From Paenibacillus thiaminolyticus (GTDB taxonomy: Bacteria; Bacillota; Bacilli; Paenibacillales; Paenibacillaceae), in the NCBI RefSeq assembly GCF_007066085.1, contig NZ_CP041405.1:6355501-6419500 (forward strand): a stretch of DNA of 64,000 nt, given 5' to 3'. Position numbers and translations under genes: made by a program. A model generated the notes under the pieces. The model made no database searches. It saw nothing but the letters and a program-made list of their open reading frames with translations, and was not told where the DNA came from. Shown here piece by piece: positions 3,731 through 51,373 of the stretch. Position 1 is the stretch's first letter; each line of letters opens with the position of its first letter.

Positions 3731-5676
<1,946 letters not shown>

Positions 5677-5737: not shown

Positions 5738-6613
5738 TTAATCGGCTTCCGTATAGTTGCGGCTGCGGAAGAACAGGGCGAGCGTGCCCGGACCGGAATG
5801 GGCGCCGATCGCGCAGCCGATCGATCCGGTCATAATGTTATGCATGCCGAACCGTTCGTTGATGATTTGCTTCAGCATCTCCATCGCTTCCGTGTCGTCG
5901 CCGTGAGCGATGCCGATCAGTTGATCCTTGTCCTCCAGATTGGCGCGCTGCTCCATCAGGTCGGCCAGCCGCTGGATCGACTTCTTCCTTCCTCTGACCT
6001 TGTCTACAGGGATAAGCTTGCCTTCCTCCACGTGCAGTACCGGCTTAATGTTCAGCAAGCCCCCGATGACGGCGGAAGATTTGCTTACCCGCCCCCCGCG
6101 GTACAAGTATTCCAGATCATCCACGGTAAATACATGCTCCAGTTCTGCTGCCAAGGCACGTACCTTGGATACGAGACGCTCGCGGGACATGCCATCGGCC
6201 GCCCAGCGCGCCGCTTGTTCGACGACGAGGCCGAAGCCCATGGAGGCGCATTTGGAATCGATGATATCTATCGCTGCGTCAGGATAATCATCCTTCACCA
6301 TGTCGAGCATCATCCGTGAGGACGCGTATGTACCCGATAACTCGGAAGAGAAGGCGATGTAGATCGCATCTTCGCCGGCTTCCGCGATGGCCGTGAAGGT
6401 CTGCTGGAACCGCTCCATCGGAACCTGGGAAGTCTTGTACACCAGCCCTTGGCGCATGCCGTCGAACATTTGCTTCGGTTGTATAGTAACGCCGTCCTCG
6501 TATTGATTCTGATCGAGAGTTACGATTATCGGCAGCACCGTGATGTTCAGCTCCTCGAGGACGGACGGGGGAAGGTCGATCGCGCTGTCTGTAAGGATAC
6601 GAACTTGATTCAT
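5738..6613 (-). CDS. DegV family fatty-acid-binding protein
   Basis: A 291-residue DegV protein. It has the N-terminal ILTDSAIDLP motif, SQVPMERF, the AFSSELSGTYASS lipid-carboxylate loop, DSKCASMG, the DDLEYLYRGGRVSK signature and a C-terminal HGDD segment. In Firmicutes these proteins hold a fatty acid and deliver it to the FakA kinase for phosphorylation; no fakA gene is in the window. The start at 6613 is chosen because AAGGAGAGG lies just upstream and the first strand begins at residue 3. The gene is convergent with pbuX and monocistronic. Confidence 0.93.
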   Translation of the reverse strand: MNQVRILTDSAIDLPPSVLEELNITVLPIIVTLDQNQYEDGVTIQPKQMFDGMRQGLVYKTSQVPMERFQQTFTAIAEAGEDAIYIAFSSELSGTYASSRMMLDMVKDDYPDAAIDIIDSKCASMGFGLVVEQAARWAADGMSRERLVSKVRALAAELEHVFTVDDLEYLYRGGRVSKSSAVIGGLLNIKPVLHVEEGKLIPVDKVRGRKKSIQRLADLMEQRANLEDKDQLIGIAHGDDTEAMEMLKQIINERFGMHNIMTGSIGCAIGAHSGPGTLALFFRSRNYTEAD

Positions 6614-41736: not shown

Positions 41737-41873
41737 GCTGTTAGGTCCGGCCATTTGCTCAGCATGGAGATGCCGGAGTATGTCAATCAGAGAGTGCTTC
41801 GGTTCCTGGAAGCTTGAGAGGATGCAGGGCCATAGGGAATCGCCATAATGGATGGAAAAAGGGGGGGCCAGCG

Positions 41874-42398
41874 ATGGAAACGGTCGTCATTGTGGACTAT
41901 GACCCGGACTGGGTACGCGACTACGAGCAGGAGAAGCGGGTTATCGAGGAGGCGCTGTCGGATATCGTCGCCGCGGTGGAGCATATCGGCAGCACCTCGG
42001 TTCCCGGTCTGGGTGCCAAGCCGATCATTGATATTATGGCCGGCATTCATCGGTTGGAGGCGCTGACCGAGGTGCATATCGAGCGCCTGGCCGCGATCGG
42101 CTACGAGTACGTGCCGAAGCCGGAATGGCCGGAACGCCGATTTTTCAGGCGTGGACGCTGGCGGGCCGGTACGCATCATCTGCATATATACCGGTATCGG
42201 GATCCCCATTGGGAAGCGCACTTGCTGTTCCGCGATTATGTAAGAGCCCACCCGGATGTCCGGGAGCAATATAGGCAATTGAAGCTTGAATTGGCCAGCC
42301 TGCATCCGTATGATCGCGTCGAATATACGCGGCGGAAGGCGCCGTTCATTGAGCGTGTGCTGCGTCTAGCGCGTGAGGAAGACCGAAGCCCGTCCTGA
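41874..42398 (+). CDS. GrpB/UPF0157 family protein
   Basis: A 174-residue member of the GrpB family, which has a nucleotidyltransferase-like fold. Typical segments are VEHIGSTSVPGLGAKPIIDI (the GSTS/D pair of the fold) and HHLHIYRY, then LLFRDYVRAHP. The ATG at 41874 has AAAAAGGGGGGG upstream. Function in the cell is not known; some relatives are found fused to CoaE. Its stop codon lies in the loop of the terminator hairpin. Confidence 0.88.
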   Translation: METVVIVDYDPDWVRDYEQEKRVIEEALSDIVAAVEHIGSTSVPGLGAKPIIDIMAGIHRLEALTEVHIERLAAIGYEYVPKPEWPERRFFRRGRWRAGTHHLHIYRYRDPHWEAHLLFRDYVRAHPDVREQYRQLKLELASLHPYDRVEYTRRKAPFIERVLRLAREEDRSPS

Positions 42399-42412
42399 TC
42401 CGGACGGGCTTC
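42385..42412 (+). terminator. Hairpin enclosing the grpB-family stop codon
   Basis: GAAGCCCGTCC and GGACGGGCTTC form a perfect 11-bp stem whose six-base loop contains the TGA stop of the gene upstream. Confidence 0.7.
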
Positions 42413-42532
42413 GCCATGTGCGGCCGTCCCTGCCTGGCTTGCAGGGGCTGCTTGCAGATTCATACAGATATCCCCCCTCGATCGCGCGTTGGAGACAGCT
42501 CTCCGAGGCGTTTTTTATGATTATCCCTTTTG

Positions 42533-42564
42533 TTCAGTTATTGTTTAGTATATTTGACTAAGAT
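42533..42564 (+). promoter_or_regulatory. SARP-type promoter: 11-bp-spaced direct heptamers
   Basis: TTCAGTT (42533) and TTTAGTA (42544) are direct heptamers exactly 11 bp apart, ending 8 bp before TAAGAT (42559-42564), a -10-like box. No -35 match is seen at the right place, as expected for an activator-dependent promoter. The same layout occurs at 44038-44069. It lies 280 bp before the BTAD regulator gene, so autoregulation is inferred. Confidence 0.6.
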
Positions 42565-42843
42565 GAAAGCGTTCGTGCCTTTCGAATTAGGTCTCAGGTC
42601 TGAAGTAAAAGGCGCAGGCTGTTTCTTTTTCTCCCCCGCCGCTTTATAGTGAAGATGACCGTATGGGTCTAGCGGCGAGATCCATGGAGGAGCAGCAGGC
42701 TGCGCGATCCGCTTCGGCATCGTCGATGCGGGAGGCAGGAAGGGGACGAGCCGGCCGTTCCGCCACGGGGACATGCATGATTCCGGCGTGTCCGGTGGAT
42801 GAGGGGGAGGCCGCTGCGGTCAAGATTGCAAGGGGGAAGGAAT

Positions 42844-43980
42844 ATGAAAGCGATCCTTGTCGATGATGAAATGCTAGCGCTGCGACGTATGGAAAAGCTA
42901 TTGAAGGAGCAGGATGGAAAGGAAGTGCCTATTGAAATTGTCGGTTCATTTCAAAATCCGCATCTGGCCCTGGAAGTGGCGGAACGGGAGACGTTCCATC
43001 TTGTCTTCCTTGATATCGAGATGCCGGAAATGGATGGAATGGAACTGGCGGAACGTCTGTTGCGCATTCAACCCCACCTTCATATTGTATTTGTGACGGC
43101 ATATAACGAATATGCGGTTGAGGCATTCGAGCTGAATGCGTTAGACTATTTATTGAAGCCGGTGCAGCGGACCCGCATCGAGAAGACGCTGAAGCGGCTT
43201 GCTAAGCCGGTGCAAGCGAACGATGAAGGGAAGCACAGCCAGCTTGAGGGGATGCTGTGCACATTGTCTTATCTGCATTATATTACTCCCCAACAGGAGC
43301 TGAAGACTTTCCACTGGCGGACGGTCAAAGCACAGGAGCTATTTGCTTATCTGCTTCACCATCGGGAGCAGACGCTGCGCAAAGATACGATTCTCGATTT
43401 GCTGTGGCCGAATTACCGCATTGAAAAGTCATCAGCCCATTTACATACGACGATTTACCAGATTAGGCAGGTCATTAAGCAGAGGGCATTACGAATCCAC
43501 ATCAAATATATGGATGAGGGGTACCGGCTCGAATTGGGCGGCATGAAGCTGGACAAGGAGGAATGGGAGAAGGCGATGCGTCTGGCCCCGCAGGTCTCTC
43601 CCGAGACGATCCAGGAGCATCAGAAGCTGCTGAACGCCTATCGGGGCGATTATTTGGCGGAGCATCAATATTTGTGGGCGGAAGGCGAACAGGAGAGGCT
43701 TCGGTTAATCTGGTTCAATCATGCGAAGCAGGTGGCCGAATGCTTGATGCGGATGAACGCATATACGGAAGCGATGCCCCTTTACAAGAAGATTCAGGAG
43801 AAATATCCATACACCGAAGATAGTTATTTCGGACTGATGAAAATTCATGCGCAGTTGGGCAATTACGGGGAAGTCATCAAGCAATTTCAACTGTTAAGCC
43901 ACAATTTAAAAGGAGAATTAGGCATTGAACCCAGCAGAGAAGTATTTGCTTGGTACATGGAATGGAAAAACAGCATTTAA
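42844..43980 (+). CDS. Response regulator with BTAD (SARP-like) output domain
   Basis: A 378-residue protein. Residues 1-125 form a receiver with acidic pocket DDE, phospho-acceptor Asp57 in VFLDIEMPEMDG, TAYNEYAVEAFELNALDYLLKP and its Lys. Residues about 150-235 form a winged helix (AQELFAYLLHHREQTLRKDTILDLLWP, HTTIYQIRQVIK). Residues about 235-378 form the TPR-like bacterial transcriptional activation domain (AYRGDYLAEHQYLWAEGEQERLR, ELGIEPSREVF). It is the likely target of the sensor at 44839 and a candidate binder of the repeats at 42533 and 44038. The start at 42844 has AAGGAAT upstream. Confidence 0.93.
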   Translation: MKAILVDDEMLALRRMEKLLKEQDGKEVPIEIVGSFQNPHLALEVAERETFHLVFLDIEMPEMDGMELAERLLRIQPHLHIVFVTAYNEYAVEAFELNALDYLLKPVQRTRIEKTLKRLAKPVQANDEGKHSQLEGMLCTLSYLHYITPQQELKTFHWRTVKAQELFAYLLHHREQTLRKDTILDLLWPNYRIEKSSAHLHTTIYQIRQVIKQRALRIHIKYMDEGYRLELGGMKLDKEEWEKAMRLAPQVSPETIQEHQKLLNAYRGDYLAEHQYLWAEGEQERLRLIWFNHAKQVAECLMRMNAYTEAMPLYKKIQEKYPYTEDSYFGLMKIHAQLGNYGEVIKQFQLLSHNLKGELGIEPSREVFAWYMEWKNSI

Positions 43981-44037
43981 TCGCGCCGACCGTCGTGGAT
44001 TCTGCTTCCGCGGCGGTTATTTTTCTTGGGAGGACGA

Positions 44038-44069
44038 TTCAGTATTTGTTCAGTAGGCCATCATAGAAT
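44038..44069 (+). promoter_or_regulatory. SARP-type promoter: 11-bp-spaced direct heptamers
   Basis: TTCAGTA occurs at 44038 and at 44049, 11 bp apart, and ends 8 bp before TAGAAT (44064-44069). Spacing and sequence match the promoter at 42533-42564. It would drive the GGDEF gene and the large sensor kinase under control of the BTAD regulator. Confidence 0.62.
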
Positions 44070-44144
44070 AGTCGATGTTTATGAGAAAAAGTCGAAATTT
44101 TAGGTAAAAAATCCAATTCATTGTGGGAGTGAAAACCAATCAAC

Positions 44145-44825
44145 ATGAAATATACGGGCAGAATAATAATGACTGCCATGACGCTGTGCGGATGGGTCGC
44201 ACTCATCGCATACCTCATGTCGGCAAAAATGATGAATCCGATGTTGGCCGTGCTCACCATTATGATGCTTGGCGTATCTTGGCGATGCGGCAAACGGTAT
44301 GATGTCGTGAAGTATGAATCGGAAATCGACCCTATGACATTGGCGTATAACCGCAGAAGTGCCGATGTAATATTTCAGAGGCTGGCTGGCAAACACCGCA
44401 AAAATGGACAAAAAACCGCCGTCTTTTTCTTCGACGTGGATCGGTTCAAAGAAATTAATGATACGTATGGCCACAATGCGGGAGATCGGGTGCTGCGGCT
44501 CATTTCGACCGTGCTGCTGAATACATCCGGCAGCGAGACCGCGGTCGTTCGCTGGGGAGGCGATGAATTTGTGTTCATGGTGCCCTGCTCTGACCGGTGC
44601 GAGCTGCGGAGCATCCGCAGCCGCATAATGAACAAGCTGGCCTTGACTGCAGAGCAGGCCTCGGTTCCTTTTGCGGTATCTTATGGCTATGCGGTATATC
44701 CGGAGGAGGGGACATTATTAAGCGATATTGTGGAGATGGCGGACAGACATATGATGCGAATCAAACGAAGCAAGCTCCGCTGCGGCTCTCAGGATACCGC
44801 CAAAATGCAGCTTTCACTACAGTAG
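44145..44825 (+). CDS. Membrane diguanylate cyclase (GGDEF)
   Basis: A 226-residue protein. Two N-terminal hydrophobic helices (residues about 5-25 and 30-47) anchor a GGDEF domain with DPMTLAYNRR, FFFDVDRFKEINDTYGH (metal ligands) and an intact WGGDEF active site at residues 138-142. It should make c-di-GMP. The RxxD inhibitory site that would precede GGDEF is absent, so product inhibition through it is not expected. It lies 13 bp before the sensor kinase gene and is co-transcribed with it. Confidence 0.92.
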   Translation: MKYTGRIIMTAMTLCGWVALIAYLMSAKMMNPMLAVLTIMMLGVSWRCGKRYDVVKYESEIDPMTLAYNRRSADVIFQRLAGKHRKNGQKTAVFFFDVDRFKEINDTYGHNAGDRVLRLISTVLLNTSGSETAVVRWGGDEFVFMVPCSDRCELRSIRSRIMNKLALTAEQASVPFAVSYGYAVYPEEGTLLSDIVEMADRHMMRIKRSKLRCGSQDTAKMQLSLQ

Positions 44826-44838
44826 GGAGATTGGGCAA

Positions 44839-47800
44839 ATGGCAAAACGATATGTTGTTCGACTCGTCTTTGCACTCGTGACCATTCTGTATGTTGTGTT
44901 GGCCGGCGGTTTCTTCCGGGAATGTGAGGCATTTCCGAAGCCGGTGCAGGGGGTGCTTGATCTTAGCGGCAGCGGATGGGAACAGGAGGGCCTTATCAAG
45001 TTGAAGGGGGAATGGGAATTTTATCCGGACAGGATATTCTCGAACGCTTCACAGATTGCGGCCCTCGGTGCCAAGCCCGTCTTCATCCAAGTGCCGGGCC
45101 CCTGGAGAATCGACAGCGCATGGACGGGACCCCGGCCATTCTCTACATACGGCACGTACCGATTGCGAATTATACTTGACAACAGCTCGGAACAGATATT
45201 TTCTTTTTATGTGAAATCCATTATGAGTTCCCACAGCATGATCGTCAATGGCCTGCGCATTGGCAGCAGCGGGCTCTCCCCGGACGATTTCCATTCAAAT
45301 ACGCTATACAACACCTCTTATGTTGCCTATGCGCATACGAATAGCAATGTTATCGATCTGATGATCCAGATCGACAGGTCAGACTCCGTCTGGCACGGGG
45401 CCATCACCAGGCCGATATCGTTTGGACTGCCGCAGCAAGTGAACTTGGAGCGGAACCTTGAGCTCATGCTGGAAATGGGCATTCTGCTGACCTTATTGTT
45501 GGGCGCTTTTCATACGATACTTATTTATCTGTTCCGATTGCCGCAGCCCGGGTGGCAATATTTTGTTCTTTTTTGCATGTCTGCGATAGTGTTCGTTCTT
45601 ATTTTCGGAGAAAGATGGGGAGCGATGCTATTCCCGATGCTGTCCTTCTATTGGCGCTACAAGCTGATGATAGTGACGTCGATCGGCATGAATCTGTTCC
45701 TGCTGCTCTATGCATCGCGAAGGCGCCGATGCTATGTGCATCCGCAGATAGCCCAATTCGCGGCATACGTCTCCATGCTGGGAACCGTTGCCGTTTTTCT
45801 AGTGAAGCATACCCGCGGCATCATTGCCGTGTCTGCGGTAACTCATGGAATATTTCTAGCCTTATATCTTTATTTATTCTATAGGCTGGTGCGCGGTTCA
45901 TTGGTTGCCGGGAAGACATTTCCCTTCTTGCTGACAATCGCATTCGCGGCGGGAGGATTTGCGGTATACGGTGGAGTATTCGGCGTCCATGAGTCGCTGT
46001 ATTGGTGGTATTTGAACTTTATCATCTTTATTTGCGTGCTTGTCTTCCTTCAGGCAAGGCAGCATTACGCCGCCTATCGAAGAGAGAAGGAATTGGCCGA
46101 AGCATTGGCGAACCATAGGCGCTCGAATGAAGAATTTATGGCAGCGACAGCCAAGGAATTGAAGACGCCGCTGCTTGCGATTACGAATTTGGCGCAATCC
46201 CTGCTGGAAGGCAACCGTGGCAACTTGTCGGTCAAGCAAGAGGAAGATTTGCATATTGTTGTATTTGTCGCGAAGCATATGACCCGATTGGTTAGCGATC
46301 TGCAGGATTGGTCAGAATTGAAGGAAGGAAGGATGCTCATCCATGTGAAAGTACTTGATCTGAGGAGAACCGTCACCGCTGTGATAGAGATTACCCGTTA
46401 TATTACAATGCCTCGAGACATTGTAATATGCAACAAGCTGGATGACAATCTGCCGCCGGTGCTGGCTGATGAGCAGCGATTGATGCAGATTATGTCCCAA
46501 CTGCTGCACAACGCGGTGAAGAATACGAAGAAGGGCACAGTGACGGTATCGGCCCTAGCATTGAAGGAAGCAGTGGAGGTTCGGATCTCGGATTCGGGAG
46601 GCGGAATGACGCAGGCGGAGATGGAAGGCATCTTTGATGCGTACGAGCAGGATGTGCCGCATCGTTCTTCTTTTTTTGACAGAAGGCTCGGTCTCAATGT
46701 CACGAAGCGGTTGGTAGAGCTTCATGGCGGAACCATTGGCGTGACTTCAGCCATAGGCCGCGGCTCAACGTTCTATTTCCGTCTGCCAATCGCTGAACAA
46801 CAGCAGGGGGATGAGGGGGAACTTATGAGGAAGGAGGATGGCAAGGCGGCAATTCCCGTGCGGATGCCGCTGGAATATCAGGAGCAGTTCGGCTGGGAGA
46901 TTGCAGAAGAGATCGTGTTCGATGCGCCTTCTCCTTCTTTCACGGTTGACGAGATTGGCGAGGCCTGCATTCTAATCGTCGACGATGATCCGATTCATCA
47001 GAAGGTATTGGAAAATCTGCTCTCCCCAGATCGATTCCGGCTTACCACGGTCTCCAGCGGGGAAGAAGCGTTATTGCAGATTCGGCACATCCGGAACTGG
47101 GATCTGGTACTGCTCAATCTGATGATGTCTGGCATGTCGGGCTTGGAAGTATGCCGGCGCATTCGGGAGATGCATTCCTTGTTCGAGCTGCCGGTACTGA
47201 TGTTAACGGGAAGGGGGCGTACCGATGACGCACTCGCCGCTTACTCGGCCGGAGCGAATGACTTTGTGGCGAAGCCGATCGACTCCGCCGAGCTGCGGGC
47301 CCGCGTGCGGACGCTGTTGCTGATGAAGCATTCGGCGAATGAGCGGTTCCGTATGGAGATGGCTTTTTTGCAGGCGCAAATCAAGCCCCATTTTATTTTC
47401 AATACGTTGAACTCGCTTGTCTCGCTCAGTGAAGACGATCCAGAGCAGATGCGCGAGCTGCTAGTCGAATTCAGCAATTATTTGCGGCAGAGCTTCCGCT
47501 TCGATAATGTGGAGCCATTGGTACCGCTCGAACGGGAGCTTCAACTGGTACGTTCTTATTTATACATAGAAAAAATCAGGTTCGGGGACCGGCTGCAATT
47601 TACGATTGATCTGCCTGAATCGCATCGGTTGCGTATCCCGCCGCTATCCATTCAGCCGATCGTGGAGAACGCCGTTCACCACGGGATTATGAAACGGATG
47701 GGCGGGGGCACGATTCATATTCGCGTCTATGCGGAGGACAAACATTATTGCATCGAAGTCTGCGATGATGGGGTCGGCATCTCGGCCGATCGGCAGGAGC

Positions 47801-47952
47801 AGCTGTTGGCGAAGAGCGCGACCGGCGGAATCGGGCTCAAAAATATTGATTACCGATTGCGGCAGCTGTTCGGCACGGGCATATCGGTGCGCAGCGCCCC
47901 GATGGAGGGGACCTGCGTCAAATTTTGTATTCCGTGCGAGACAGATAACTAA
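44839..47952 (+). CDS. 7TM hybrid sensor with two kinase modules, first inactive
   Basis: A 1037-residue sensor. A signal-like first helix and an outer jelly-roll domain (7TMR-DISM extracellular type, residues about 30-200) precede seven helices (about 210-405). A HisKA/HATPase module follows, but its H-box reads ATAKELKTPL with Lys439 where the His belongs. Its N-box (LLHNAVKNT) and DSGGGM loop are kept. A receiver (about 712-830) has Asn760 where Asp is phosphorylated (VLLNLMMSGMSG), though DDD and Lys are kept. The C-terminal LytS-type kinase is intact (QIKPHFIFNTLN, His851; IVENAVHHG; GGIGLKN). Only the last module can autophosphorylate. A strong hairpin ends the operon. Confidence 0.9.
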   Translation: MAKRYVVRLVFALVTILYVVLAGGFFRECEAFPKPVQGVLDLSGSGWEQEGLIKLKGEWEFYPDRIFSNASQIAALGAKPVFIQVPGPWRIDSAWTGPRPFSTYGTYRLRIILDNSSEQIFSFYVKSIMSSHSMIVNGLRIGSSGLSPDDFHSNTLYNTSYVAYAHTNSNVIDLMIQIDRSDSVWHGAITRPISFGLPQQVNLERNLELMLEMGILLTLLLGAFHTILIYLFRLPQPGWQYFVLFCMSAIVFVLIFGERWGAMLFPMLSFYWRYKLMIVTSIGMNLFLLLYASRRRRCYVHPQIAQFAAYVSMLGTVAVFLVKHTRGIIAVSAVTHGIFLALYLYLFYRLVRGSLVAGKTFPFLLTIAFAAGGFAVYGGVFGVHESLYWWYLNFIIFICVLVFLQARQHYAAYRREKELAEALANHRRSNEEFMAATAKELKTPLLAITNLAQSLLEGNRGNLSVKQEEDLHIVVFVAKHMTRLVSDLQDWSELKEGRMLIHVKVLDLRRTVTAVIEITRYITMPRDIVICNKLDDNLPPVLADEQRLMQIMSQLLHNAVKNTKKGTVTVSALALKEAVEVRISDSGGGMTQAEMEGIFDAYEQDVPHRSSFFDRRLGLNVTKRLVELHGGTIGVTSAIGRGSTFYFRLPIAEQQQGDEGELMRKEDGKAAIPVRMPLEYQEQFGWEIAEEIVFDAPSPSFTVDEIGEACILIVDDDPIHQKVLENLLSPDRFRLTTVSSGEEALLQIRHIRNWDLVLLNLMMSGMSGLEVCRRIREMHSLFELPVLMLTGRGRTDDALAAYSAGANDFVAKPIDSAELRARVRTLLLMKHSANERFRMEMAFLQAQIKPHFIFNTLNSLVSLSEDDPEQMRELLVEFSNYLRQSFRFDNVEPLVPLERELQLVRSYLYIEKIRFGDRLQFTIDLPESHRLRIPPLSIQPIVENAVHHGIMKRMGGGTIHIRVYAEDKHYCIEVCDDGVGISADRQEQLLAKSATGGIGLKNIDYRLRQLFGTGISVRSAPMEGTCVKFCIPCETDN

Positions 47953-47955
47953 GCA

Positions 47956-47996
47956 GGGGGCTGCCTTAAGGTTTTGTTGACCTTAAGGCAGCCCCC
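47956..47996. terminator. 16-bp perfect hairpin, bidirectional terminator
   Basis: GGGGGCTGCCTTAAGG pairs fully with CCTTAAGGCAGCCCCC around a nine-base loop. It lies between the sensor gene and a convergent small gene. T-rich sequence follows only loosely. Confidence 0.75.
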
Positions 47997-48004
47997 AAGC
48001 TATT

Positions 48005-48187
48005 TTATCGATGCAATTGAACGATTCGTTCAAGGTCAGGAGTGACAGGGATATCATCATTTTTCTTTTTTTGTGCTGCCCGTCTCATTTGATGATAATG
48101 GCGCTTGCACAAATTTTTCGCATAGTGACGTTCCTTGCAGCCTTCTTCACTGCACAATCGTTGTGTTGCCATTCTAGGTCTGCCCAT
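48005..48187 (-). CDS. Small Cys/His zinc-binding protein
   Basis: A 60-residue basic protein. The centre reads CSEEGCKERHYAKNLCKRHY, a C-x4-C-x9-C-x2-H pattern that should hold one zinc ion, followed by a Lys/Arg-rich helix. Similar short domains occur in phage-related and HNH-associated proteins and probably bind nucleic acid. AGGGGAGG lies seven bases before the ATG on the minus strand. Function unknown. Confidence 0.7.
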   Translation of the reverse strand: MGRPRMATQRLCSEEGCKERHYAKNLCKRHYHQMRRAAQKKKNDDIPVTPDLERIVQLHR

Positions 48188-48553
48188 GAGTACCTCCCCT
48201 TTTGACTATGTATTTATACCTAATTGTAGATGTTAAGAATGAACAATTTCTGAACGAAATAAGCCAAAAGATACTGGAAAACATAAAAAAAGGATTTATT
48301 TGAATAAAAATTTAAACTTTTTTTATATCGTTAACTATAATAATAAGTTTTTCAGTTGTCCTTTTACAAGGAGTAAATAAAAAGTTGTGGTTCCAAGGTC
48401 TCTGGAAACGGGTGTTCCCAAAATATGCCTTTGGTTTTGGATCGGCAGGTGCGATTCGAGGTTTCCCCTGGCCGCAATTTCTGATAGGATAGTTCGTGGA
48501 AGCCTTTCCACAATAAATATTAGAGGCGATGGATGAAAGAGAGGTGCAGTGCG
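48188..48553 (+). promoter_or_regulatory. AT-rich intergenic region before the GH85 gene
   Basis: This 360-bp gap is much more AT-rich than its surroundings near 48230-48350 and has TTGAAT- and TATAAT-like words but no unique promoter call. No gene is supported. Confidence 0.3.
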
Positions 48554-51373
48554 ATGAGTGCAGATTATTCATCACGCAGCAGCAATGACAAGCAGCATGT
48601 ACTGGAAGATTGGTCAGCGGCCCGGGAGACACCGAAAGGTCCGGGGCAGCCATACCTCCATGGCTACAATGCCAAGGAATTGAAAGCGTGGTCACCCGAC
48701 ACGGATCCGTATGCCCGCTTTTTTCGCTCACGGGTGCCGCTCGCGAAGCGGATAGAACCGTTCGCCCCGACTCAAGCGCATCCCGCGCTAACGTATCAGG
48801 CGAAGGTGATGAACTTGTCCGCCGATTATGACAAGGAGGAATGGTTCGGTGCCTACCGCTATAATGACAGCTTCAGCAGGAATGTCCTGAAGTTCTGGCA
48901 GTACCAAGATATTTATGCGGCATGGCATGGGCTGCCGGTATATGGTTCACCGGAGGAGGAGCGGCAATACGGCGTCGTGAATCTTCCGAATCCGGCGTAT
49001 ACCGACGCCGCGCACCGCAACGGCGTCATTAGCCTGGGCGGCTGGTTCTGGCCGCGTGACACCGATTTCGGCGAGCTGGTCGAGGAGACGGAAGACGGAC
49101 GCTTCCCGGTAGCCGACAAAATGATAGAGATGGCGGAGTATTTCGGGTTCGACGGCTATTTCGTCAACCAGGAGGCAAGCATTAGTGAAGAGCATGCCGC
49201 CCAACTGATGAAGATGCTGAAATATATGCGCGAGAGCGGGCTGTACTTCAGCTGGTACGATAGTCTGGCGCCGAATGGCGAATTGCAATATATCAATTTC
49301 TTCAATGAGATGAATGCGCCATGGGTTCTGGACCAGCGGGACGGCCGCCAGCCGAACGACAGCATATTCATTAACTACGCTTACACGCCGGAGCGGCTAG
49401 AGAAGAGCAATGCTTATGCGAAGGAGATTCGACTTGATCCGTACGAAGCGCTTTTTTCCGGTGTGGAAAATGATAAGTTCCGCTTCGAGCGCGGCAATGA
49501 GCTGAAATCCATTTTCCGGGATGACGAGGCCCGCACCCCGCGTACGAGCGTGGCGCTGTTCGGCACCGACATGGTATGGCACCGCGGACCGAATCCGTCG
49601 GATCCGAAGATGCAGCAATATATTGAGCACCGCGAGCGCATTTACTGGTCTGGCGCCAAAGGCAATCCTGCACGCAGCGGACGCGGCATCGGCTCGGAAG
49701 GAGAGAGCTGGGACGGATTGGCGCATTTTATACCGGAGCGTTCAGTTATCGGTTCGTATCCGTTTGTCACGCGCTTCAACAACGGGCATGGGCTCGCCTT
49801 CTTCTTGAACGGAGAAGTGGCAAGCCGCACAGGCTGGAACAATGTCAGCGCTCAAGAACTGCTTCCGACTTGGCAGTGGTGGGTTGCTTCCGCAGGGAAT
49901 CCGCTTGCCGTAGATTATGATTACAGCACAGCGTGGAATGGCGGCTCGTCTATCATTGCAGAAGGACTGCTGGAACCGGGAAGCAGCGCAGACATTCGCC
50001 TGTACAAGACGGATTTGCCGACAGACATGGACGTATTGTTATCGCTAACCTGCAAGCTCGGCTGGTCATATGCCGGGAATCATTCGCAGGCTAACGAGGT
50101 GGACTCAGATTTAGTACAGCTCTACATGCTCTTATATTATCAGGACGAGCCGGAGACGCCGGAAGTGTTGTCTTTCGATACGGCGCCTGGCAGAGATTGG
50201 ACTACGCTTGCGAAGCGGCTTGCCAGTGGGGTGAAGCGCCGGATCGCCGCCATTGGAGTCCGCATCGCGTCCCTAGCGGAGAAAAGCGTCGCCGTCAAGG
50301 TGAACCTGGGTGAACTGAAGCTGACCGCGGAAGCGGCACAATTGCCAGTGCTGAATGCCCCAGCCGGCTTCCAAGTAGAACAGGCATACTTCAGCGAGGA
50401 GCAGGCCTCCCTCATATTGTCCTGGAAATTCGCTGATGAAAGTGTTATCGATAACTTATGGTATTACGATCTATACCGTGTGAAGGGCGGGGAGCGGGAA
50501 GCGATAGGCAGAATCTTCGATGACGTGTACTACGTCAAATCCGTAGAGCGGCTCGGAGAGAACGAGCTTACCTTCGAAGCGGTGGCCGTGAACACAGAAG
50601 GAGTTGCAGGACAGCCGGCCGTCGCCGTATGGTCGTGGGGAGACGGCGAAGCCGTCGATGCTCCAACTGGGCCGCATCCGGCAGAGAGCCTGCAGCCTCA
50701 ATTCAACACGGAAGAGGATATTGTGATCGAGCCAGGCTGGAGCCGGTATTTGAATATTCGCGTCGAGCCGGCGTGGGCGGATAATCTGTCACTGATATGG
50801 ACCTCCAGCAATGAGCGCGCCGTGACCGTCAATGAGCGCGGCCAGATTACGGCCGTGGCACCGGGCGAGGCGGTTGTCACTGCGGCTACGGGTAACCTGG
50901 GTGGCCAAAAGGGCCCATCGCTGCAAATGAAAGTGAGTGTCGTAGCGCCAGGAGCGGCTCCGGAAGGCGGCGTCACGCTGGAAGCGGAGCAATACAACCG
51001 CTCGAACGGGCTGTTCATCCCAGGCACATATGTGCATGTACGCGATTTGCATTTTGCCAACTGGATGGCGTTCGATGATGTCGATTTCGGTGCGGAAGGC
51101 GTGAGCCGCATTACCGTACGCGCCGCCGTCTTGACGGAAGAGACTCGAATGTTGATCCACATCGGCGATGCGGAAGGTCCGCTGGTTGCGGATATGGAGC
51201 TGCCGTTGAAGGACGGTAAGTTGGCTCCGTTCTATCATAACTACTCGATGGAGTTGGCTCAACCGCTTACCGGGCGTCAGACGATCTATGTCACCTTCCA
51301 GAACCCGAATATCCGCCGTTGGCAGATCCGGGATACGGGGATTGCGGACATCGATTGGATCCACTTTTCATAA
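48554..51373 (+). CDS. GH85 endo-beta-N-acetylglucosaminidase
   Basis: A 939-residue enzyme that cuts the chitobiose core of N-glycans. The catalytic TIM barrel (about residues 30-380) shows GVISLGGWFWPR, the NQE pair (Asn205 and Glu207 in GYFVNQEAS, where Asn positions the acetamido group and Glu is the acid) and FSWYDSLAPNG. A beta-sandwich follows, then a BIG2-like Ig domain (TSSNERAVTVNERGQITAVAPG) and a CBM6-like domain to the end. No signal peptide is visible. ATG 48554 is preferred for the GAGAGGTG upstream; the ATG at 48533 adds seven residues and no signal either. Confidence 0.92.
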   Translation: MSADYSSRSSNDKQHVLEDWSAARETPKGPGQPYLHGYNAKELKAWSPDTDPYARFFRSRVPLAKRIEPFAPTQAHPALTYQAKVMNLSADYDKEEWFGAYRYNDSFSRNVLKFWQYQDIYAAWHGLPVYGSPEEERQYGVVNLPNPAYTDAAHRNGVISLGGWFWPRDTDFGELVEETEDGRFPVADKMIEMAEYFGFDGYFVNQEASISEEHAAQLMKMLKYMRESGLYFSWYDSLAPNGELQYINFFNEMNAPWVLDQRDGRQPNDSIFINYAYTPERLEKSNAYAKEIRLDPYEALFSGVENDKFRFERGNELKSIFRDDEARTPRTSVALFGTDMVWHRGPNPSDPKMQQYIEHRERIYWSGAKGNPARSGRGIGSEGESWDGLAHFIPERSVIGSYPFVTRFNNGHGLAFFLNGEVASRTGWNNVSAQELLPTWQWWVASAGNPLAVDYDYSTAWNGGSSIIAEGLLEPGSSADIRLYKTDLPTDMDVLLSLTCKLGWSYAGNHSQANEVDSDLVQLYMLLYYQDEPETPEVLSFDTAPGRDWTTLAKRLASGVKRRIAAIGVRIASLAEKSVAVKVNLGELKLTAEAAQLPVLNAPAGFQVEQAYFSEEQASLILSWKFADESVIDNLWYYDLYRVKGGEREAIGRIFDDVYYVKSVERLGENELTFEAVAVNTEGVAGQPAVAVWSWGDGEAVDAPTGPHPAESLQPQFNTEEDIVIEPGWSRYLNIRVEPAWADNLSLIWTSSNERAVTVNERGQITAVAPGEAVVTAATGNLGGQKGPSLQMKVSVVAPGAAPEGGVTLEAEQYNRSNGLFIPGTYVHVRDLHFANWMAFDDVDFGAEGVSRITVRAAVLTEETRMLIHIGDAEGPLVADMELPLKDGKLAPFYHNYSMELAQPLTGRQTIYVTFQNPNIRRWQIRDTGIADIDWIHFS

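Follow-up and report, generated by a model that had tools for sequence, protein, structure and literature searches.

SARPs (Streptomyces antibiotic regulatory proteins) are usually treated as antibiotic-cluster activators of actinomycetes. The PhoB, PhoP and OmpR response regulators combine a receiver with a winged helix and bind tandem repeats, to our knowledge without a BTAD module, and 11-bp direct repeats near a -10 box are common for the OmpR/PhoB superfamily. EmbR of Mycobacterium tuberculosis (2FEZ) has a winged helix and a BTAD domain, as does the regulator described here, and takes its input from a Ser/Thr kinase, versus a predicted histidine kinase input for our regulator; it carries an FHA domain (PMC10936776) where our protein has a receiver. 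According to the published rule for SARP promoters, direct repeats are spaced by 11 or 22 bp, and 8 bp separate the 3' one from the -10 box (PMC10936776). On the afsS promoter (PDB 8HVR, 8K60, 8JKE), the AfsR repeats span -40 to -19, and a poor -35 hexamer, TTCAGC at -38 to -33, overlaps the upstream repeat (PMC10936776). AfsR contacts DNA through W74, T88, R94 and K95, with a base contact by R92 (PMC10936776). A review gives the AfsR repeats as CGTT(T/C)ATCGNN and reports that Streptomyces PhoP binds them as well (PMC10972967), so the GTTYA half-site alone is not SARP-specific. GSU1771 of Geobacter sulfurreducens has, like the regulator described here, an N-terminal receiver and a SARP region, and belongs to a different phylum; its biofilm/polysaccharide regulon resembles the output that we predict here; it bound several promoters in gel shifts, including its own, and self-activation was suggested (PMC10599522). 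No promoter motif for GSU1771 was found in the available portions of PMC10599522, PMC7962754 and PMC12325454.

We have analyzed a window of 64,000 nucleotides from Paenibacillus thiaminolyticus (NZ_CP041405.1, positions 6,355,501 to 6,419,500). Our main reading, to which we assign a probability of roughly three in four, is that the gene at 42844 encodes a phosphorylation-driven, two-component SARP-type activator with positive feedback that acts on three sites in the window. The features of the locus are as follows:

42533..42564, plus strand: candidate site 1, TTCAGTT-ATTG-TTTAGTA-8 bp-TAAGAT, about 280 bp 5' of the regulator start; rank 3 in the genome profile search
42844..43981, plus strand: gene for a response regulator of 378 aa, with a receiver (4-116), a winged helix (160-228) and BTAD (253-372)
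43988..44018, plus strand: terminator-like hairpin, 3' of the regulator gene and just 5' of site 2, from a consensus scan only
44038..44069, plus strand: candidate site 2, TTCAGTA-TTTG-TTCAGTA-8 bp-TAGAAT, preceding the GGDEF-kinase gene pair; rank 1 in the genome profile search
44145..44825, plus strand: gene for a 226-aa GGDEF protein, the first to follow site 2; in relatives, too, the site is followed by similar GGDEF genes
44839..47952, plus strand: gene for a hybrid sensor kinase of 1037 aa with HisKA, HATPase, receiver and LytS-type His_kinase domains; the regulator's likely partner
47956..47996, no strand assigned: long inverted repeat, read from the sequence, that separates the kinase gene from the 60-aa ORF converging on it; likely a two-way terminator
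48005..48187, minus strand: 60-aa ORF with a CxxxGC...LCxxH zinc-finger-like motif, kept in the three close genomes examined
48223..48254, minus strand (48254-48223): candidate site 3, TTCAGAA-ATTG-TTCATTC-8 bp-TACAAT, weaker, about 35 bp 5' of the 60-aa ORF; rank 2 in the genome profile search

The initial annotation had assigned SARP DNA-binding and BTAD domains to the gene at 42844, and both Pfam and the AfsR-like fold of the predicted model bear this out. Trans_reg_C (160-228) and BTAD (253-372) each score over the cut-off, giving an OmpR-type DNA-binding domain followed by BTAD. A profile of this part searched against solved structures matched EmbR (8.8e-16) and AfsR (1.4e-12), and also many TPR proteins by way of its helical half. 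We compared the predicted model, whose mean pLDDT is 88.5, with known structures using Foldseek, and the first three ranks were AfsR chains of the transcription-complex entries 8K60 and 8HVR (TM 0.71-0.73 by target, 0.50-0.51 by query), followed by the plain OmpR-type regulator 1P2F and by EmbR at ranks 5, 6 and 9. Domain order and the modeled AfsR/EmbR fold would thus place the regulator in the SARP family in the protein sense. The receiver residues D7, D8, D57, T85 and K105 do not vary across an alignment of 32 sequences, that of the window included; together with the adjacent kinase gene, they mark the protein as a probable two-component response regulator. Compared with AfsR, the receiver is N-terminal here and a NOD/TPR region is C-terminal there. 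When mapped through the EmbR alignment, W188, T202 and R208 appear to keep the spacing of AfsR W74, T88 and R94, while R92 would correspond to Q206 and K95 to Q209 (alignment consensus K at 209), so that the DNA contacts cannot be identical to those of AfsR. Elsewhere in this genome (C1:4458522-4459196), another match to the regulator has an internal stop (TGA), and several other genomes of the genus have a second full-length copy.

Both heptamer pairs and their -10 boxes were found exactly where the initial annotation had put them. Site 1 consists of TTCAGTT (42533-42539), TTTAGTA (42544-42550), an 8-bp interval and TAAGAT (42559-42564); site 2 consists of TTCAGTA (44038-44044), TTCAGTA (44049-44055), 8 bp and TAGAAT (44064-44069). 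The repeats are 11 bp apart, start to start, in both, and this layout agrees with the published SARP rule, as had been claimed. A genome search for the spaced heptamers had been proposed as well; exact TTYAGTW-N4-TTYAGTW occurs at two places in the 6,612,442-bp genome, namely sites 1 and 2, and a reversed control pattern occurs at three. Site 3 came from a relaxed scan of the window on the minus strand. The two-promoter picture stands in that both elements are exact, and is amended by a third promoter and by related genomes, which point to a surface/matrix regulon and not to a single local switch. None of the three window sites has a good -35 hexamer at 16-18 bp, the best agreeing at 2, 1 and 3 of 6 bases. 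When placed in the afsS frame by our own arithmetic, the second heptamer falls at -27 and the -10 box at -12, the same register. The likeness to AfsR on the afsS promoter extends from the winged helix and BTAD fold to the 11-bp repeats, the 8 bp to the -10 box, the GTTYA core and the poor -35. A regulatory RNA in the leader of about 275 nt after site 1 was considered and dropped, since Rfam over 41800-48600 gave nothing above threshold.

The promoter layout also bears on the direction of control. GSU1771 is reported to repress some targets and to activate others (PMC10599522), and our regulator might similarly bind the sites and mainly repress, or work without phosphorylation. We consider this improbable: the sites occupy the -35 position by a good -10 box and lack a good -35, like the activated afsS promoter.

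In order to examine the geometry in relatives, pairs of the TTYAG core with a -10 box were counted over 140 combinations of repeat length and distance, with the core read off the window sites and the spacings left free. The 55 loci found with the regulator as query were reduced to 48 (382,721 bp) by leaving out seven near-duplicates (L011, L082-L086, L092). The cell for repeat 11 and distance 8 contained 30 sites, whereas the other 139 cells averaged 2.98 and reached 11 at most; related species remain among the 48 loci, so the 30 sites are not all independent. As a control, 55 loci (612,832 bp) surrounding relatives that are more distant and for the most part receiver-only gave 6 sites at 11/8 and no peak. 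An unbiased scan for exact 6-mer repeats also favored 11 bp, with 8, 15 and 11 sites at distances 8, 9 and 10, so that distance 8 is not singled out by it. At least one site was present in 32 of the 55 regulator-query loci and none in the other 23. Sites adjoin relatives of 31-55% identity, some of whose loci belong to a Peptococcaceae and to an actinobacterial MAG, and a TTYAG site 5' of the regulator's own gene was found only in the close clade of the window.

For ranking the whole genome, a profile was made from 20 sites that lie outside the clade of the window, thus without the window sites; for this and the second profile alike, training sites were chosen for sharing the TTYAG core and the 11/8 layout of the window sites. 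Sites 2, 3 and 1 were the top three matches (E 0.006, 0.026 and 0.056), with the next at 0.26. These single E-values are modest (0.006-0.06) and, given how the training sites were chosen, the ranking of sites 1 and 2 speaks for their uniqueness and is not an independent discovery. Site 3 is the informative case, because it is the best match besides the two given sites and lies 4.2 kb from site 2. Lower rows of the ranking are weak, and no further targets in this genome are claimed from them.

Among 295 sampled genomes of the family, a site was found at E<=0.01 in 150 and the regulator at E<=1e-60 in 244. A site was present in 149 of the 244 genomes with the regulator and in 1 of the 51 without it, leaving 95 and 50 site-less genomes, respectively; this cross-table ignores phylogeny and includes the training-site genomes, and, since filters were stricter here and 23 candidates were scored per genome, the 95 are an upper bound. 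Within the genus, 22 of 68 site matches lie at most 1 kb from a full-length receiver-BTAD gene, where 0.05 would be expected; they are spread over 14 of the 18 genomes that have such a gene. The count is partly built in, since these genomes also supplied several of the training sites. Regulator-positive genomes and regulator-query loci that lack a site weigh against our main reading, as do the changed contact residues, the restriction of own-gene sites to the close clade and the sharing of the half-site with PhoP.

This tracking of receiver-BTAD genes by the site, often at 1 kb or less, is the argument against a different OmpR/PhoB-type regulator occupying repeats that are themselves real. Two observations favor such a regulator: Streptomyces PhoP shares the AfsR repeats (PMC10972967), and profile searches match the winged helix of our own regulator to OmpR-type regulators too. 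We judge it unlikely, if slightly less so than repression or phosphorylation-independent action by the regulator itself. The BTAD module of the window protein and the 8-bp distance of the sites follow the SARP pattern, in distinction from PhoB, PhoP and OmpR.

Chance repeats in AT-rich intergenic DNA are a far weaker explanation. The exact-6-mer scan does show background at many spacings, and conservation of the sites in the close clade is no better than that of the near flanks. Of 32 positions, 1, 1 and 3 differ within this clade in the three window sites, and the nearest 40 columns also vary little (left/right 11/4, 2/7, and 8/4 of 35); the footprint is strong against distant flanks and not against these nearest columns, so that close-clade conservation adds little. 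Nevertheless, genome uniqueness, the geometry peak and co-occurrence across genomes contradict chance, and we have rejected it as extremely improbable. The initial annotation had named frequent spaced heptamers in unrelated DNA as one outcome that would speak against it, and neither the genome pattern, the geometry counts, the profile ranking nor the co-occurrence points to such frequency.

Returning to the activator reading, we hypothesize that the neighboring hybrid sensor kinase phosphorylates the receiver of the regulator. A pair of regulator molecules would then occupy the two neighboring GTTYAG heptamers, one for each turn of the helix, where a -35 box would otherwise lie, and would hold sigma region 4. 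RNA polymerase could thereby open the promoter with the -10 box alone in the manner of AfsR, which acts by sigma adaptation (PMC10936776), as suggested by the matching architecture, fold and promoter layout. The targets in this genome would be the regulator's own gene, the GGDEF-kinase pair and the gene for the 60-aa protein, and self-activation would form a positive feedback loop coupled to cyclic-di-GMP. From binding and sigma adaptation through phosphorylation by the kinase to feedback and a surface/matrix output, each step of this scheme is a prediction.

The genes behind the sites in relatives point to what the regulator may control. In 46 of 53 new site loci (L126-L130, L143 and L145 were left out as window-clade sites), we asked whether an ORF of at least 200 aa starts at most 200 bp downstream on the motif strand; this was so for 42 of the 46 site loci, compared with 6 in the opposite direction. 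At the family level, 15 downstream proteins from 24 loci were scanned with Pfam. Seven are surface or wall proteins (SLH, Collagen_bind, collagen repeats, Ig-like), two have GGDEF domains, one is a cellulose-synthase-like glycosyltransferase and one a sugar-nucleotide epimerase; the other four agree less with this picture, namely a protein with a weak FlgD_ig match, one with DUF6242, one with NHL repeats and the product of a MarR gene at a distance of 418 bp. The 11 proteins scanned at the genus level comprise six large surface proteins, two GGDEF proteins, one GDP-mannose-type enzyme and two lacking a Pfam match. Near the regulator in other species, sites precede genes for collagen-binding/SpaA, SLH and beta-helix proteins, or GGDEF, GGDEF-EAL or kinase genes. 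Surface/matrix remodeling is the most likely output, as the sites of relatives precede genes for surface adhesins and S-layer-type proteins and for diguanylate cyclases and enzymes of polysaccharide metabolism. In the narrow sense of an antibiotic-cluster activator we do not class the regulator as a SARP: the targets scanned in relatives are mostly surface, GGDEF and sugar genes, and Pfam placed none of the seven locus proteins scanned, regulator included, in an antibiotic-synthesis family. Host (Paenibacillaceae) and predicted targets (surface, c-di-GMP and matrix genes) are further differences from AfsR of Streptomyces.

A SARP-type switch with a receiver in a Firmicute had been flagged as worthy of note. 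Domains, fold and geometry support the switch; given GSU1771, the mere occurrence of a receiver-SARP beyond the actinomycetes is no novelty. Among the matches listed in open-licence PubMed Central, no title or opening of an abstract mentions SARP-type promoters or a receiver-SARP regulon in Firmicutes, and what appears new against those matches is the shared SARP promoter code and the surface regulon in Paenibacillaceae. A broader proposition, for and against which we see the balance as even, is that this code (GTTYAG direct repeats at an 11-bp spacing, 8 bp to the -10 box, no -35) is an old grammar common to Bacillota and Actinomycetota, that two-component SARPs, widespread in Paenibacillaceae, regulate surface adhesins, S-layer-type proteins, matrix polysaccharides and c-di-GMP there, and that antibiotic control is one later use. 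If a receiver-SARP does use the same grammar in Bacillota, sigma adaptation by SARPs would be an older and wider mechanism, and a searchable 32-bp element, present in about half of the 295 sampled family genomes, would predict an adhesin/matrix regulon in an area where, in our judgment, control of surface attachment is poorly mapped.

The window kinase has two kinase modules, HisKA/HATPase and a C-terminal LytS-type module, which flank an internal receiver, and the same module order recurs beside receiver-BTAD genes in relatives. Of seven neighboring large ORFs that were scanned, six encode hybrid kinases matching HisKA, HATPase, receiver, LytS-type His_kinase and 7TM (one 7TM and one HisKA match below cut-off), and the seventh (L001) is a glycoside hydrolase/glycosyltransferase protein. 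The 7TM domain was found by Pfam in kinases of relatives and was not reported for the window copy. In one close genome (L180, around 2343-2710) the GGDEF frame behind site 2 is shortened, with the site and the kinase gene kept. The 60-aa ORF has a good ribosome site and no Pfam match, and begins with an AT-hook-like sequence (GRPR); the product could be a small DNA- or RNA-binding effector. Finally, a Cohnella locus (L020) has elements at 329-360, 5281-5312 and 5886-5917 with the 11/8 geometry and TTAAG-type heptamers, one of them mixed TTCAG/TTAAG. The last of these lies directly 5' of a diverged receiver-BTAD gene, and the TTAAG elements may reflect co-variation of recognition helix and half-site.
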